DNA of 20,198 bases from a virus. The translations under genes and the position numbers were made by a program. The notes beneath the pieces are model-generated. The model ran no database searches and was not told where the DNA came from. It saw nothing but the letters and a program-made list of their open reading frames with translations. Positions 1,189-19,902 of this stretch are shown piece after piece. Each line of letters starts with the position of its first letter. Position 1 is the stretch's first letter. The stretch covers positions 1 to 20,198 of the IMG/VR virus record IMGVR_UViG_3300048818_000024. One strand, 5' to 3'.

Positions 1189-1893
1189 ATGCGAATTGTT
1201 AAACCTCTTGTTATTTTAGAAGACGAAATTGATGGTATTGCAATTGCCAAAAAGATTGAATACTTTACCAGGAAATGTTATAAATCTGAAGGTAAAATAA
1301 CTCCAGATTCATATGATGCGTTTGTTCGCCGTATTTTTAATACGATGAAACATGAAGGTATCATAGAACACAGATATTTTTCTGCCACATTTATTACTGA
1401 TCGTGGTGTTTCTCATGAACATGTTCGCCATCGTATGGCATCATATCTCCAAGAATCAACACGATATTGTGATTATTCAGGAAAAGGTATAACATTTATT
1501 TTACCTCCATGGATATACCCGGGACATCCAGATTGGCTGGAATTTATTCTGGATCTTGAATGTGAAGAAAAGAAATATAATCGGTGGAGAAATGAACATA
1601 AATGGAAACCTCAAGAGGCTCGTTATTGGCTTCCTAATGGGGTTAAGACTGAATATGCCTGTGCAATGAATCTTGGTTCTTGGTATAATTTTTTCAAAAA
1701 GAGAACCTCAGCGGCAGCGCACCCACAAATACGTCAATTAGCAATTCCATTACTACGGTATATATCACATAAAATACCAATGATTTTTGATGGACTTGAA
1801 ATACCTCAAGTTGATTATGAAGAAGCTAAATTATTGTTACATCCAGGAACAGAACCAGTAGAGTTTGAAGAAGTAGAAATTAAAAGGGAATAA
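1189..1893 (+). CDS. thyX: Flavin-dependent thymidylate synthase
   Basis: This 234-residue enzyme methylates dUMP to dTMP using methylene-tetrahydrofolate and FAD/NADPH, and works as a homotetramer. The diagnostic ThyX motif RHRxxSxxxxSxR is complete at 80-92 (RHRMASYLQESTR). A second conserved block, ARYWLPNGVKTEY, lies at 144-156. The C-terminal HPQIR at 178-182 carries the Arg that positions dUMP. The length is typical. The ATG follows the primase stop with no gap, and the ribonucleotide reductase follows the thyX stop with no gap, so the three genes form a tightly coupled dNTP-supply and priming unit. T4 itself uses the unrelated ThyA type (td), so this lineage has the alternative, folate-sparing enzyme. 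Nothing looks degenerate. Confidence 0.96.
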   Translation: MRIVKPLVILEDEIDGIAIAKKIEYFTRKCYKSEGKITPDSYDAFVRRIFNTMKHEGIIEHRYFSATFITDRGVSHEHVRHRMASYLQESTRYCDYSGKGITFILPPWIYPGHPDWLEFILDLECEEKKYNRWRNEHKWKPQEARYWLPNGVKTEYACAMNLGSWYNFFKKRTSAAAHPQIRQLAIPLLRYISHKIPMIFDGLEIPQVDYEEAKLLLHPGTEPVEFEEVEIKRE

Positions 1894-4863
1894 ATGCTTC
1901 CAACAGATTACCAAAAATTTATACATTTTTCGAAGTATAGCAGATGGCAAGATGAATTAGGTAGGAGAGAAACTTGGGAAGAAACAGTTGAACGATATAT
2001 CAATTTTTTAAAAAAATATATTTTAGAAAACCAAAAAATAAAAACCAAAGATGAAAAGGAGTTTTTAAAATTATTGGAATTAACCAAAACCAGTATTTTA
2101 AAATTGGATGTTGTTCCTTCAATGAGGTCTCTTAAGATGGCAGGACCCGCACTTGAAAAACACCATGCATCGGGGTACAATTGTTCCTTTATTTCTATAG
2201 ATCATCCACATTCTTTTGATGAAATTTTATATTTATCCTGTTGTGGTTGTGGTGTTGGATTTTCTGTTGAGAAAAAATACATTTCTAAATTACCTGAAAT
2301 ACCCTTAGAATTTTATCCTACAAGTACAGTTATCGATGTTCCTGATTCCAAAATTGGTTGGGCATCTGCATTACGGGAATTGATTTCATTATTATATGCG
2401 GGTAAAATTCCTAAATGGGATATATCTAAAGTGCGTCCATATGGAGCAATTTTAAAAACTTTTGGTGGTAGAGCATCTGGTCCAGGACCTTTAGTTGATC
2501 TATTTGAATTTGTGGTTAAAACATTTCAAAAGGCGGCTGGCCGTTGCCTTGAAAGTATTGAATGCCATGATATATGTTGTAAAATTGGTTTAATTGCTGA
2601 ATCTGGTGGCACGCGGCGCGCCGCCCTGATTTCATTATCAGATGTTTCTGATGGTGAAATGTGCCATGCAAAATCTGGTAATTGGTGGGAAATAAATTCA
2701 CAAAGATCATATGCTAATAATTCAGCAGTTTATTATACTAAACCAGAATTAGGTATATTTTTAGATGAATGGATTTCTTTATTTCGTAGTAAATCTGGTG
2801 AGCGTGGTATTTTAAGTTTATGGAATTTATCTAAAACTGGAAATAAGCGCCGTGATTGGACTAAAGTGGCCGGGGTAAATCCGTCGATGCCTGCCGGAAT
2901 TTTAGTTATGACAAATGAGGGAATTTTCCCGATACAAAATTTAGAAAATAAAAAATTTCAAGTTAAAACTTTAAACGGTGAATTGGCTCCGGCCAAATGT
3001 GTTTTATCATCTCCGAAAGCACAAATTTATAAGATAGATTTTGGAGAAGGTAAATATACTAGATGTACGCAAAAACATAAGTGGCCGGTATTACGAAATG
3101 ATAAAATAACAAATGTAGAAACTGGAGATTTAGAAGTTGGAGATTTAATACCATTAAATCCTTTAGGTAATTCTAATATTTCAGGAAACTTACAATGGAC
3201 GAAAGATGAGGGGTTTTTGTTGGGTATGCTTTTAGGTGATGGGTGGTTACATAAAAGAAAAAATAACAAATATTCCGCAGGATTTGTCTTTAATAAAAAA
3301 GAAACAGAATTACAAATTAAAACCCAAAAAATATTAAATTCTATGAAGGTGAATCCTTCCCACGTGAAGGAAAGAAAATCATGTAAAGAATTACAATTTT
3401 CTTCTATACAATTATGTGAACGTTTTGTAAATGAATTTGGTTTTAATAAGAAAGAAATAGGTATTCCAAATTCCATTTGGATTTCTAATGATAATTTTAT
3501 AAAAGGTTTTATTGATGGTATCTATTCCTCTGATGGTAATATCTATAAAAATAGTATAGCATTAACAACTTCTCGAAAAAATATTGCGGAAGATATATGT
3601 AAATTGTTATCTTTTTATGGACTAAAACCTCGCATCAAATACAGGAAAATGAAAAATATAAAATTCCCAAACAATAAAATATACGATAGGGAATACGATA
3701 ATTATAATGTTGTTTTGGATTGTATTCAAGCAAAAAGATTTGCTGAGATTTTTACATTATCTCATATACAAAAACAAAAAAGGTTAGATAAAATTAAAAA
3801 ATTTATTTCTAAGAAAAAAAGAATAGATCATAATTACTGTAAAATTAAATCCATTATTTTAGATGGAGAAGAAAAGGTTTGGGATATTTCGGTGGACCAT
3901 AAAACCCATGTGTATCCCTCACAATATTGTTTTTCGGGTAATTGTGGAGAAATCCTTTTGCGACCCAATTCTTTTTGTAACCTTTCTGAAGTAGTTGTAC
4001 GTCCAGGAGATACATTTGAAACCTTAAAAAATAAAGTACAAATAGCAACATTTATTGGTACAATGCAATCGTGTTTAACTAAATTTAAATATATCCGGAA
4101 GATATGGCAAAAAAACTCTGAAGAGGAACGATTATTGGGGGTTTCGTTAACTGGCATTTTAGATAATAAATTATTAATTGATCCTTTAACGAGCCCGGAA
4201 ATACTTCAAACTTTAAAAACAGAAGCGATAGAACTTAATAAGTATTGGTCTGACATTTTTGGTATCAATGCTTCAGTTGCAATTACAACAGTCAAACCCA
4301 GTGGAAATACATCACAGTTGGTAAATTCAGCATCGGGTATACACCCAAGATATTCTCAATATTATATTAGAACAGTCAGAATGGATAATAAAGATCCATT
4401 AACCAAGTTTATGATGGATCAGGGTATCCCGAATGAACCCTGTATTTTAAAACCTCAGAATACAACCATTTTTTCTTTCCCAATAAAATCGCCTAAAGAC
4501 GCCATTTTACGGGATACATATAATGCTATTCAACAATTGGAATTAATGAAAATATTTAAACAAAATTGGGCTGAGCATAATGTTAGTATAACTGTATATG
4601 TTAAAGATTCTGAATGGTTGGATGTAGCCTCTTGGGTATATAAGAATTTTGATATTATTGGTGGTATAACATTTTTACCTTATGATGGTGGCACATATAA
4701 ACAAGCACCATATAGAGAAATAACTGAAGAAGAATATGATACCTTTTTAAAAGGTATGCCCACTAATATAGATTGGTCAAAATTGACTGATTATGAAAAT
4801 GAGGATAGAACTGTAAATTCTAAAGAATTAGCTTGTATGAGTGGAAATTCTTGTGAATTGTAA
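1894..4863 (+). CDS. nrdJ: Adenosylcobalamin-dependent (class II) ribonucleoside-triphosphate reductase with in-frame intein
   Basis: The precursor is 989 residues, or 636 after removal of the 353-residue intein. That is shorter than the Lactobacillus leichmannii RTPR (739). It reduces ribonucleotides to deoxyribonucleotides through a B12-generated thiyl radical. Cys97 (YNCSF) and Cys695 fit the active-site redox pair. Cys684 (NP|CGEILL) fits the radical cysteine: Cys684 to Cys695 is an 11-residue step, as in C408/C419 of the Lactobacillus enzyme. The C-terminal tail CMSGNSC (981, 987) fits the re-reducing cysteines. The substrate/phosphate region PSGNTSQL...SGIHPRYSQYYIR is intact. It lies directly after thyX. 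Dependence on B12 means the host must make or take up cobalamin. No B12 riboswitch is visible upstream. Confidence 0.93.
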   Translation: MLPTDYQKFIHFSKYSRWQDELGRRETWEETVERYINFLKKYILENQKIKTKDEKEFLKLLELTKTSILKLDVVPSMRSLKMAGPALEKHHASGYNCSFISIDHPHSFDEILYLSCCGCGVGFSVEKKYISKLPEIPLEFYPTSTVIDVPDSKIGWASALRELISLLYAGKIPKWDISKVRPYGAILKTFGGRASGPGPLVDLFEFVVKTFQKAAGRCLESIECHDICCKIGLIAESGGTRRAALISLSDVSDGEMCHAKSGNWWEINSQRSYANNSAVYYTKPELGIFLDEWISLFRSKSGERGILSLWNLSKTGNKRRDWTKVAGVNPSMPAGILVMTNEGIFPIQNLENKKFQVKTLNGELAPAKCVLSSPKAQIYKIDFGEGKYTRCTQKHKWPVLRNDKITNVETGDLEVGDLIPLNPLGNSNISGNLQWTKDEGFLLGMLLGDGWLHKRKNNKYSAGFVFNKKETELQIKTQKILNSMKVNPSHVKERKSCKELQFSSIQLCERFVNEFGFNKKEIGIPNSIWISNDNFIKGFIDGIYSSDGNIYKNSIALTTSRKNIAEDICKLLSFYGLKPRIKYRKMKNIKFPNNKIYDREYDNYNVVLDCIQAKRFAEIFTLSHIQKQKRLDKIKKFISKKKRIDHNYCKIKSIILDGEEKVWDISVDHKTHVYPSQYCFSGNCGEILLRPNSFCNLSEVVVRPGDTFETLKNKVQIATFIGTMQSCLTKFKYIRKIWQKNSEEERLLGVSLTGILDNKLLIDPLTSPEILQTLKTEAIELNKYWSDIFGINASVAITTVKPSGNTSQLVNSASGIHPRYSQYYIRTVRMDNKDPLTKFMMDQGIPNEPCILKPQNTTIFSFPIKSPKDAILRDTYNAIQQLELMKIFKQNWAEHNVSITVYVKDSEWLDVASWVYKNFDIIGGITFLPYDGGTYKQAPYREITEEEYDTFLKGMPTNIDWSKLTDYENEDRTVNSKELACMSGNSCEL
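2884..3942 (+). mobile_element. LAGLIDADG intein in the ribonucleotide reductase, inserted before the radical cysteine
   Basis: Residues 331-683 of the precursor (353 residues) are absent from the reductase family and carry intein blocks. Block A is S1-MPAGILVMTNEG. Block B is T62-x-x-H65. The homing endonuclease has two LAGLIDADG helices, FLLGMLLGDG (111-120, Asp119) and GFIDGIYSSDG (208-218, Asp217), both with their catalytic Asp. Block F is VWDISVDHKTHVY. Block G ends YCFSGN, followed by Cys+1. Two residues are unusual: Ser rather than Cys at position 1, and Gly rather than His next to the terminal Asn. Both endonuclease acids and the splice-junction Asn and Cys+1 are present, so it is probably active. 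Splicing must occur for the reductase to have its active site. Confidence 0.92.
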
Positions 4864-5468: not shown

Positions 5469-5888
5469 ATGAGTGAATGGTTATATAAAGGGACACCTGT
5501 TATTGATCCACCGGAAAAATCGGTGGGATTTGTATATGACATTACAAATAATGTAACGGGTAGACGATACATTGGTAAAAAATTTTTAAAGTCTCACCGG
5601 ACTAAAAAAGTTGCTGGTAGAAAAAATCGAAAGCACGTTATAAAAGAATCTGATTGGCGAATATATTTCGGATCAAATGAATTTTTAATAGAAGATGTAA
5701 AGACATTGGGTGAAGATAAATTTACCCGTGAGATATTAGCGTTTTATAATATGAAAAAGGATATCACGTATTCCGAAACAGAGCAACAATTTAAGATGGA
5801 TGTGCTTCGAGCTAAATTACCAAATGGTAAACCCGCCTATTATAACCGGAATATCCTAGGTAAATTTTTTCCACCAAAGGAAAAATAA
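5469..5888 (+). CDS. GIY-YIG nuclease-domain protein, free-standing
   Basis: This 139-residue protein has GFVY at 20-23 and RYIG at 33-36, the two strands of the GIY-YIG nuclease fold. Next come a basic helix with Arg44 and Lys/Arg clusters (SHRTKKVAGRKNRKH), then WRIYFGSN (63-70) and a Glu-rich TYSETEQQF (100-108) that could supply the metal-binding Glu. It is only one domain long and has no C-terminal DNA-binding repeats, unlike Seg-type homing endonucleases. It may therefore act in phage DNA metabolism, or be a reduced homing enzyme. It does not resemble T4 DenA beyond the fold. The ATG is placed 5 bases after the TATAAATA octamer, so it is likely expressed late and perhaps leaderless. Its TAA overlaps the next ATG. 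Confidence 0.8.
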   Translation: MSEWLYKGTPVIDPPEKSVGFVYDITNNVTGRRYIGKKFLKSHRTKKVAGRKNRKHVIKESDWRIYFGSNEFLIEDVKTLGEDKFTREILAFYNMKKDITYSETEQQFKMDVLRAKLPNGKPAYYNRNILGKFFPPKEK

Positions 5889-19821: not shown

Positions 19822-19902
19822 CGGGGTATGGGCCAGTCTGGTTTAAGCCGCCTGCTTTGGGAGCAGGACACTTCGTAGGTTCGAATCCTACTGCCCCGAC
19901 CA
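19822..19902 (+). tRNA. tRNA-Pro (anticodon UGG), CCA encoded
   Basis: A full cloverleaf is visible. The acceptor stem is CGGGGTA (19822-19828) with TGCCCCG (19892-19898). The D arm is GGC/GCC. The anticodon stem is CCTGC/GCAGG with loop TTTGGGA and anticodon TGG at 19858-19860, followed by G as in other tRNA-Pro. The T stem is GTAGG/CCTAC with loop TTCGAAT, then ACCA. The variable region has 7 bases, slightly longer than usual, and the D loop is also long. It is the only tRNA in the window and reads CCA, and CCG by wobble. Confidence 0.93.

Follow-up and report, generated by a model that had tools for sequence, protein, structure and literature searches.

The locus described here raises the question of why an intein that begins with Ser and ends in Gly-Asn interrupts a viral ribonucleotide reductase (RNR) gene directly at the codon of the radical cysteine, and whether such an intein is a working mobile element, a switch of the reductase, or a decaying insertion. 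The stretch analysed, referred to as the window, is a viral record of 20,198 bases.

The interrupted reductase gene

The nrdJ open reading frame matched TIGR02505 (E 1e-78), 1L1L (E 2e-41), and the PHROG ribonucleotide reductase (E 6e-154); the TIGR02505 score was 265 bits in comparison to a cut-off of 340, as the intein splits the match. The TIGR02505 match and the similarity to 1L1L, with equivalents of C119, C408, and C419, identify the product as a monomeric class II RNR (NrdJm/RTPR), in which all catalytic cysteines are retained. The features of the gene are as follows, a slash marking a splice junction.

1894 to 4863, + strand: nrdJ, interrupted in frame by an intein and encoding a monomeric adenosylcobalamin-dependent ribonucleoside-triphosphate reductase; 989 amino acids, 636 after splicing
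1894 to 2883, + strand: N-extein, ending GVNP, from the 1L1L alignment and comparison with the intein-free reductase L062
2182 to 2184, + strand: C97, redox cysteine, aligned with C119 (1L1L)
2884 to 3942, + strand: intein of 353 amino acids, Ser1 to Gly-Asn, residues 331-683 (...AGVNP/SMPAG...FSGN/CGEILL)
3943 to 4863, + strand: C-extein, starting CGEILLRPNSFCNL, stop codon included
3943 to 3945, + strand: Cys+1 (C684), the radical (thiyl) cysteine, aligned with C408 of L. leichmannii RTPR (1L1L); Cys+1 in 33/33 homologues
3976 to 3978, + strand: C695, redox cysteine, aligned with C419 (1L1L)

The intein scored 37.9 bits with Pfam Intein_splicing in comparison to a cut-off of 35.8 and matched LAGLIDADG_3 with E 4e-11, and it is no chance feature of nrdJ. 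Its junction was fixed independently by the 80% identical reductase L062, which carries the uninterrupted NPCGEILLRPNSFC, and by 33 homologous inteins with NP/S...N/C borders. The original prediction had placed an intein with Ser1, a Gly-Asn end and Cys+1 at 2884-3942 and had equated Cys+1 with C408, the thiyl cysteine of the Lactobacillus enzyme; the coordinates and residues proved exact, and the alignments place the junction at the same point. It had further given the +1 nucleophile a double role and held the reductase to be dead until splicing. The location of the site bears this out: because the radical cysteine is the +1 residue, the unspliced reductase must, judging from the alignment, be inactive.

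Several neighbouring features were also recorded. A thyX gene (window 1189-1893) lies directly upstream of nrdJ with adjoining stop and start codons, and L062 has a different, larger open reading frame in its place. About 600 bases downstream of nrdJ is a free-standing SegE-like GIY-YIG endonuclease (window 5469-5888; PF19835, E 2e-37), and a single tRNA-Pro with anticodon TGG is found at window 19822-19902 on the + strand.

Splicing residues of the Ser1 family

With the window intein and two relatives as queries, the family search yielded about 40 viral loci, and bacterial assemblies were searched as well. The final set consists of 33 distinct full inteins, 28 of them viral or phage and 5 from metagenome-assembled bacterial contigs, the relatives being mostly metagenomic contigs. 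The bacterial assemblies held five complete copies and one fragment; four of the complete copies were in candidate phyla radiation bins (Paceibacterota, Levyibacteriota, Daviesbacteria, and Levybacteria, one each) and one in a Chloroflexi bin, and the contigs that carry them may be viral in origin. All 33 inteins follow the NP/S1...N/C+1 pattern without exception. The motifs of the window intein and their conservation in the family are as follows.

2884 to 2886, + strand: Ser1 (S331), predicted N-terminal splicing nucleophile; 33/33 homologues, TCN codons in all
2998 to 3000, + strand: Cys369, conserved 32/33
3007 to 3009, + strand: Ser372, where Ser1/Ser+1 inteins carry the NX-motif His (aligned with PI-PkoII), 23 residues before the block B His; Ser 32/33, Thr 1/33
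3067 to 3078, + strand: block B, T392-x-x-H395; Thr 31/33, Ser 2/33, His 33/33
3217 to 3243, + strand: LAGLIDADG motif 1 (LLGMLLGDG), acid D449; Asp 33/33, Pfam match
3496 to 3537, + strand: LAGLIDADG motif 2 (FIKGFIDGIYSSDG), acid D547; Asp 32/33
3877 to 3915, + strand: block F, D664 (F:4) and H672 (F:13); D664 33/33, H672 in every Gly-Asn member
3937 to 3942, + strand: penultimate Gly682 and C-terminal Asn683; Gly 30/33, His 3/33, Asn 33/33

The residues of a class 1 intein are thus present, with Ser1, Cys+1, the block B T-x-x-H (T392, H395), Asp at F:4 (D664), and the C-terminal Asn (N683), and only the penultimate His, which is usual but not strict in class 1, is replaced (Gly682). The assignment to class 1 stands all the same, since the penultimate His was found dispensable in some inteins (Chen et al. 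2000, as cited in PMC8772380). The two motifs with acids D449 and D547, together with a PF14528 match above its cut-off, identify a LAGLIDADG homing endonuclease. Other assignments agreed less well with the sequences: a class 3 intein was rejected because Asp occupies F:4 in 33/33 where class 3 has Cys and no Ser1/Cys1, the intein begins with Ser1 and not with the Ala1 of class 2, and it differs from a cysteine-less Ser1 intein in having Cys+1 instead of Ser or Thr and in missing the NX [R/K]-His.

The block F His was retained in 30/30 Gly-Asn members, and two of the three members with a penultimate His have Asn or Gln in its place. Two of those three are sisters, and this pattern is only suggestive of a swap in which the block F His would take over Asn cyclisation from the penultimate His. 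By these counts, Ser1 and Gly-Asn are evidently rules of the family and no decay. The original prediction had called Ser1 and a missing penultimate His known but uncommon; Ser1 is indeed a standard class 1 nucleophile (PMC4031507), but neither trait is uncommon here, with Ser1 in 33/33 and Gly in 30/33, where it is accompanied by the block F His.

The pairing of Ser1 with Cys+1 bears on the role of the NX motif. An [R/K]-His is conserved at this motif in 58 Ser1/Ser+1 or Ser1/Thr+1 inteins and is missing from the GOS TerL intein, and it was proposed that Cys+1 makes the motif unnecessary (PMC10189870). In the literature covered, GOS TerL (Bachmann and Mootz 2015, as cited by later papers) is the only intein for which Ser1 with Cys+1 had been described. 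In the alignment, the NX His of PI-PkoII precedes the block B His by 23 residues, and none of the 33 members has a His at that spacing; Leu or Lys, then Ser or Thr, were found instead. The NX-free Ser1/Cys+1 state thereby extends from one case, GOS TerL, to 33, as that proposal predicts, and the pairing is fixed across the whole allele family at the NrdJ radical cysteine. In the sequences of the Cys1 inteins from this site, the NX position is Thr. Because the Ser1 family resembles them in the NX region, its origin from an RNR intein by a Cys1-to-Ser1 change is suggested, without being proved. It is possible, though on balance not quite favoured, that the inteins at the RNR radical cysteine make up a mechanistically distinct Ser1/Cys+1 subgroup within class 1, in which the host radical cysteine, as a strong +1 nucleophile, makes the NX His dispensable, the block F His replaces the penultimate His, and the host active site dictated the chemistry of the intein. 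No earlier description of this NrdJ allele family was found in the literature searched.

Mobility, selection, and alternative explanations

The radical-cysteine site was empty in 79 of the 80 nearest loci. The most similar reductase, L061 (82%; IMG/VR 3300050013_000156), has an unrelated intein between the same two codons (1564-3000; 479 amino acids, Cys1, HNH_3 endonuclease with E 1e-8, C-terminal Gln), and in L062, the second most similar in the viral collection (80% over the C-extein), the site is empty and reads through as VAGVNPCGEILLRPNSFC. Three closely related reductases, that of the window included, thereby show one empty site and two inteins unrelated to each other, which is the pattern of a mobile element; the sporadic occupancy is consistent with the predicted cleavage of intein-free alleles. 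In the maximum-likelihood tree a branch supported at 100/100 separates the Ser1 inteins from the Cys1 inteins of the same codon, which come from Thermus phages and class I nrdE/nrdA genes, so that the tree shows the Ser1 group as one clade with a single origin. Monomeric and dimeric NrdJ hosts interleave within this group, where well-supported branches force 3 to 4 changes, which means that the intein has passed from one NrdJ subclass to another. With the endonuclease acids kept in 33/33 and 32/33, the copies appear to have been mobile until recently.

Extein dN/dS in comparison to the intein-free L062 was 0.12 for the N-extein and 0.09 for the C-extein, and family intein pairs gave mostly 0.09-0.26 overall, with usually lower values for the N-terminal splicing half. 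Pairwise comparison thus shows purifying selection on the extein, the splicing domain, and the LAGLIDADG endonuclease, the estimate for the reductase coming in part from intein-free lineages. Since all three parts are under such selection, slow or failing splicing is unlikely, and the indirect evidence speaks for functional splicing. An AlphaFold2 model built with 25 family members showed a HINT plus LAGLIDADG fold with pLDDT 90, for which the best Foldseek match was PI-PfuI, an intein endonuclease (1dq3, E 1e-18). PI-PfuI is likewise the intein of a ribonucleotide reductase, that of Pyrococcus.

Very probably, the insertion is a selfish homing class 1 intein with its own LAGLIDADG endonuclease and an oxyester-to-thioester relay, one allele of a mobile family at the NrdJ radical-cysteine codon; its chemistry, splicing speed, and homing are what we infer from the residues and patterns above. 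T392, H395, and D664 would strain and activate the Pro330-Ser331 bond, Ser1 would form the oxyester, and the N-extein would then pass as a thioester to Cys+1, the reductase's own thiyl cysteine. Asn683 would cyclise, with the block F His672 standing in for the absent penultimate His, and an S-to-N shift would yield the native NPCGEI. Before splicing, the reductase would be inactive with its radical cysteine capped and displaced, and homing, together with the cost of losing it imprecisely, would maintain the intein, with no regulatory benefit. Pro at -1 counts against this explanation, as it can slow the splicing of some inteins; Mth RIR1, presumably located at the same NP/C site, is one that splices poorly with this residue.

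A proline at -1 may also disfavour the acyl shift, and Cys+1, the stronger nucleophile, might then attack the Pro-Ser amide directly as in class 2, leaving Ser1 a merely structural residue; the class 2 intein Mja KlbA likewise has no penultimate His (G6 Ser, PMC7765530). Such a route is unlikely for a family in which Ser1 is invariant (33/33), whereas class 2 has Ala1. Decay, with a dead reductase and a gene on its way out, would fit the departure of both terminal residues from the usual Cys1 and His-Asn, but it is scarcely credible where Ser1 is invariant, Gly-Asn is the family norm, the endonuclease acids are conserved, and the exteins are intact with every catalytic cysteine present and dN/dS of about 0.1. 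Ser1 and Gly had also been expected to slow splicing; their constancy and the low extein dN/dS, together with ultra-fast splicing of NrdJ-1 at the neighbouring bond (PMC13123727), speak against this expectation.

The original prediction had considered conditional control of dNTP production conceivable, that is, an intein kept as a switch through which a redox or temperature signal frees the reductase when dNTPs are wanted. With the radical cysteine as the +1 residue, activity would be strictly splicing-dependent; conditional splicing has precedent in other inteins (PMC6195587, PMC7360933), and in Aquifex R2 the intein has an effect on how the mature enzyme is loaded with iron (PMC8772380). We nevertheless regard a switch as quite improbable. 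Occupancy is sporadic in near relatives, the nearest of which are empty or, in the case of the closest, harbour an unrelated intein at the identical codon, and inteins of the HNH and LAGLIDADG types share no conserved switch. Ser1 takes one thiol out of the active site, conservation does not extend to the cysteines of the intein near Cys+1 (C679 occurs in a minority of members), and C369, which is conserved, lies three residues before the NX position. Among the 33 inteins no conserved candidate for a redox-switch partner of Cys+1 and no sequence sign of conditional splicing were found, and nothing appears to need the intein for control. Inteins as a rule occupy conserved positions of functional weight (PMC2814812), and this suffices to explain the radical-cysteine location: the enzyme cannot lose this residue, which is already well suited as a +1 nucleophile.

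Other insertions were seen at catalytic codons of related reductases. In L015 (IMG/VR 3300025661_000373; open reading frame from 414, 2024 amino acids) a single nrdJ carries four inteins. The C119 site holds one with Pro1 and a block F Cys, which is class 3-like; a second precedes SNNSI, the Ser1 type occupies C408, and the last adjoins C419 and ends in Gln, so that each of the three catalytic cysteines has an intein at or next to it. L023-L026, L029, and L039 have, besides the Ser1 intein at C408, a second intein at the redox cysteine C119 (YN/C...TGN/C) in the N-terminal part of nrdJ. Gln-ending inteins with Cys+1 were found in L057 and L058, in Thermobifida phage P318 at the C119 site and in Salicola phage SCTP-2 at the NrdA radical-cysteine site. 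In Rhizobium phage RHph_N3_13 a group I intron (L008:1945-2194 and on to about 2700; RF00028, 83.6 bits) lies at the C419 codon of nrdJ, followed by an open reading frame that is annotated as a sigma-factor decoy and looks HNH-type.

Comparison with known inteins

The results take the Ser1/Cys+1 pairing from a single described case to a natural family of at least 33 in viral and some bacterial NrdJ genes, which tests a stated prediction on the NX histidine and makes contiguous inteins of this type available for protein engineering. The invasion of one catalytic codon by unrelated inteins is also a sharp case of site choice where the +1 residue can never be lost. The GOS TerL intein shares Ser1, Cys+1, and the lack of an NX His (PMC10189870) with this family, but it is split and does not come from an RNR gene, whereas the family is contiguous, endonuclease-bearing, and located in NrdJ. 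The cysteine-less Ser1/Ser+1 inteins PolB16, Psp Pol-1, and PI-PkoII share Ser1 and the class 1 catalytic residues, but they carry Ser or Thr at +1 and an NX His, neither of which occurs in the family.

Closer in location are the Cys1 inteins at the same RNR codon in Thermus phages G20c, P23-45_stolb1, and TSP4 (NP/C...SGN/C) and in the class I NrdE/NrdA of an SPbeta-like phage, Brochothrix A9, and Vibrio VPMCC14 (SNL/C...TGN/C). They share with the Ser1 family the insertion point, the radical cysteine as Cys+1, mostly Gly-Asn, and LAGLIDADG in the full-size ones, and differ in Cys1, in Thr at the NX position, and in their separate side of the tree. The L061 intein occupies the identical codon, but with Cys1, an HNH_3 endonuclease, and a terminal Gln. 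The split intein NrdJ-1, with native exteins NPC and SEI and a splicing rate constant of 0.027 per second (PMC13123727), uses the same NPC motif of the RNR active site; unlike the Ser1 family, it is inserted one residue later, so that the radical cysteine is at -1, and it combines Cys1 with Ser+1 in a split, ultra-fast intein.
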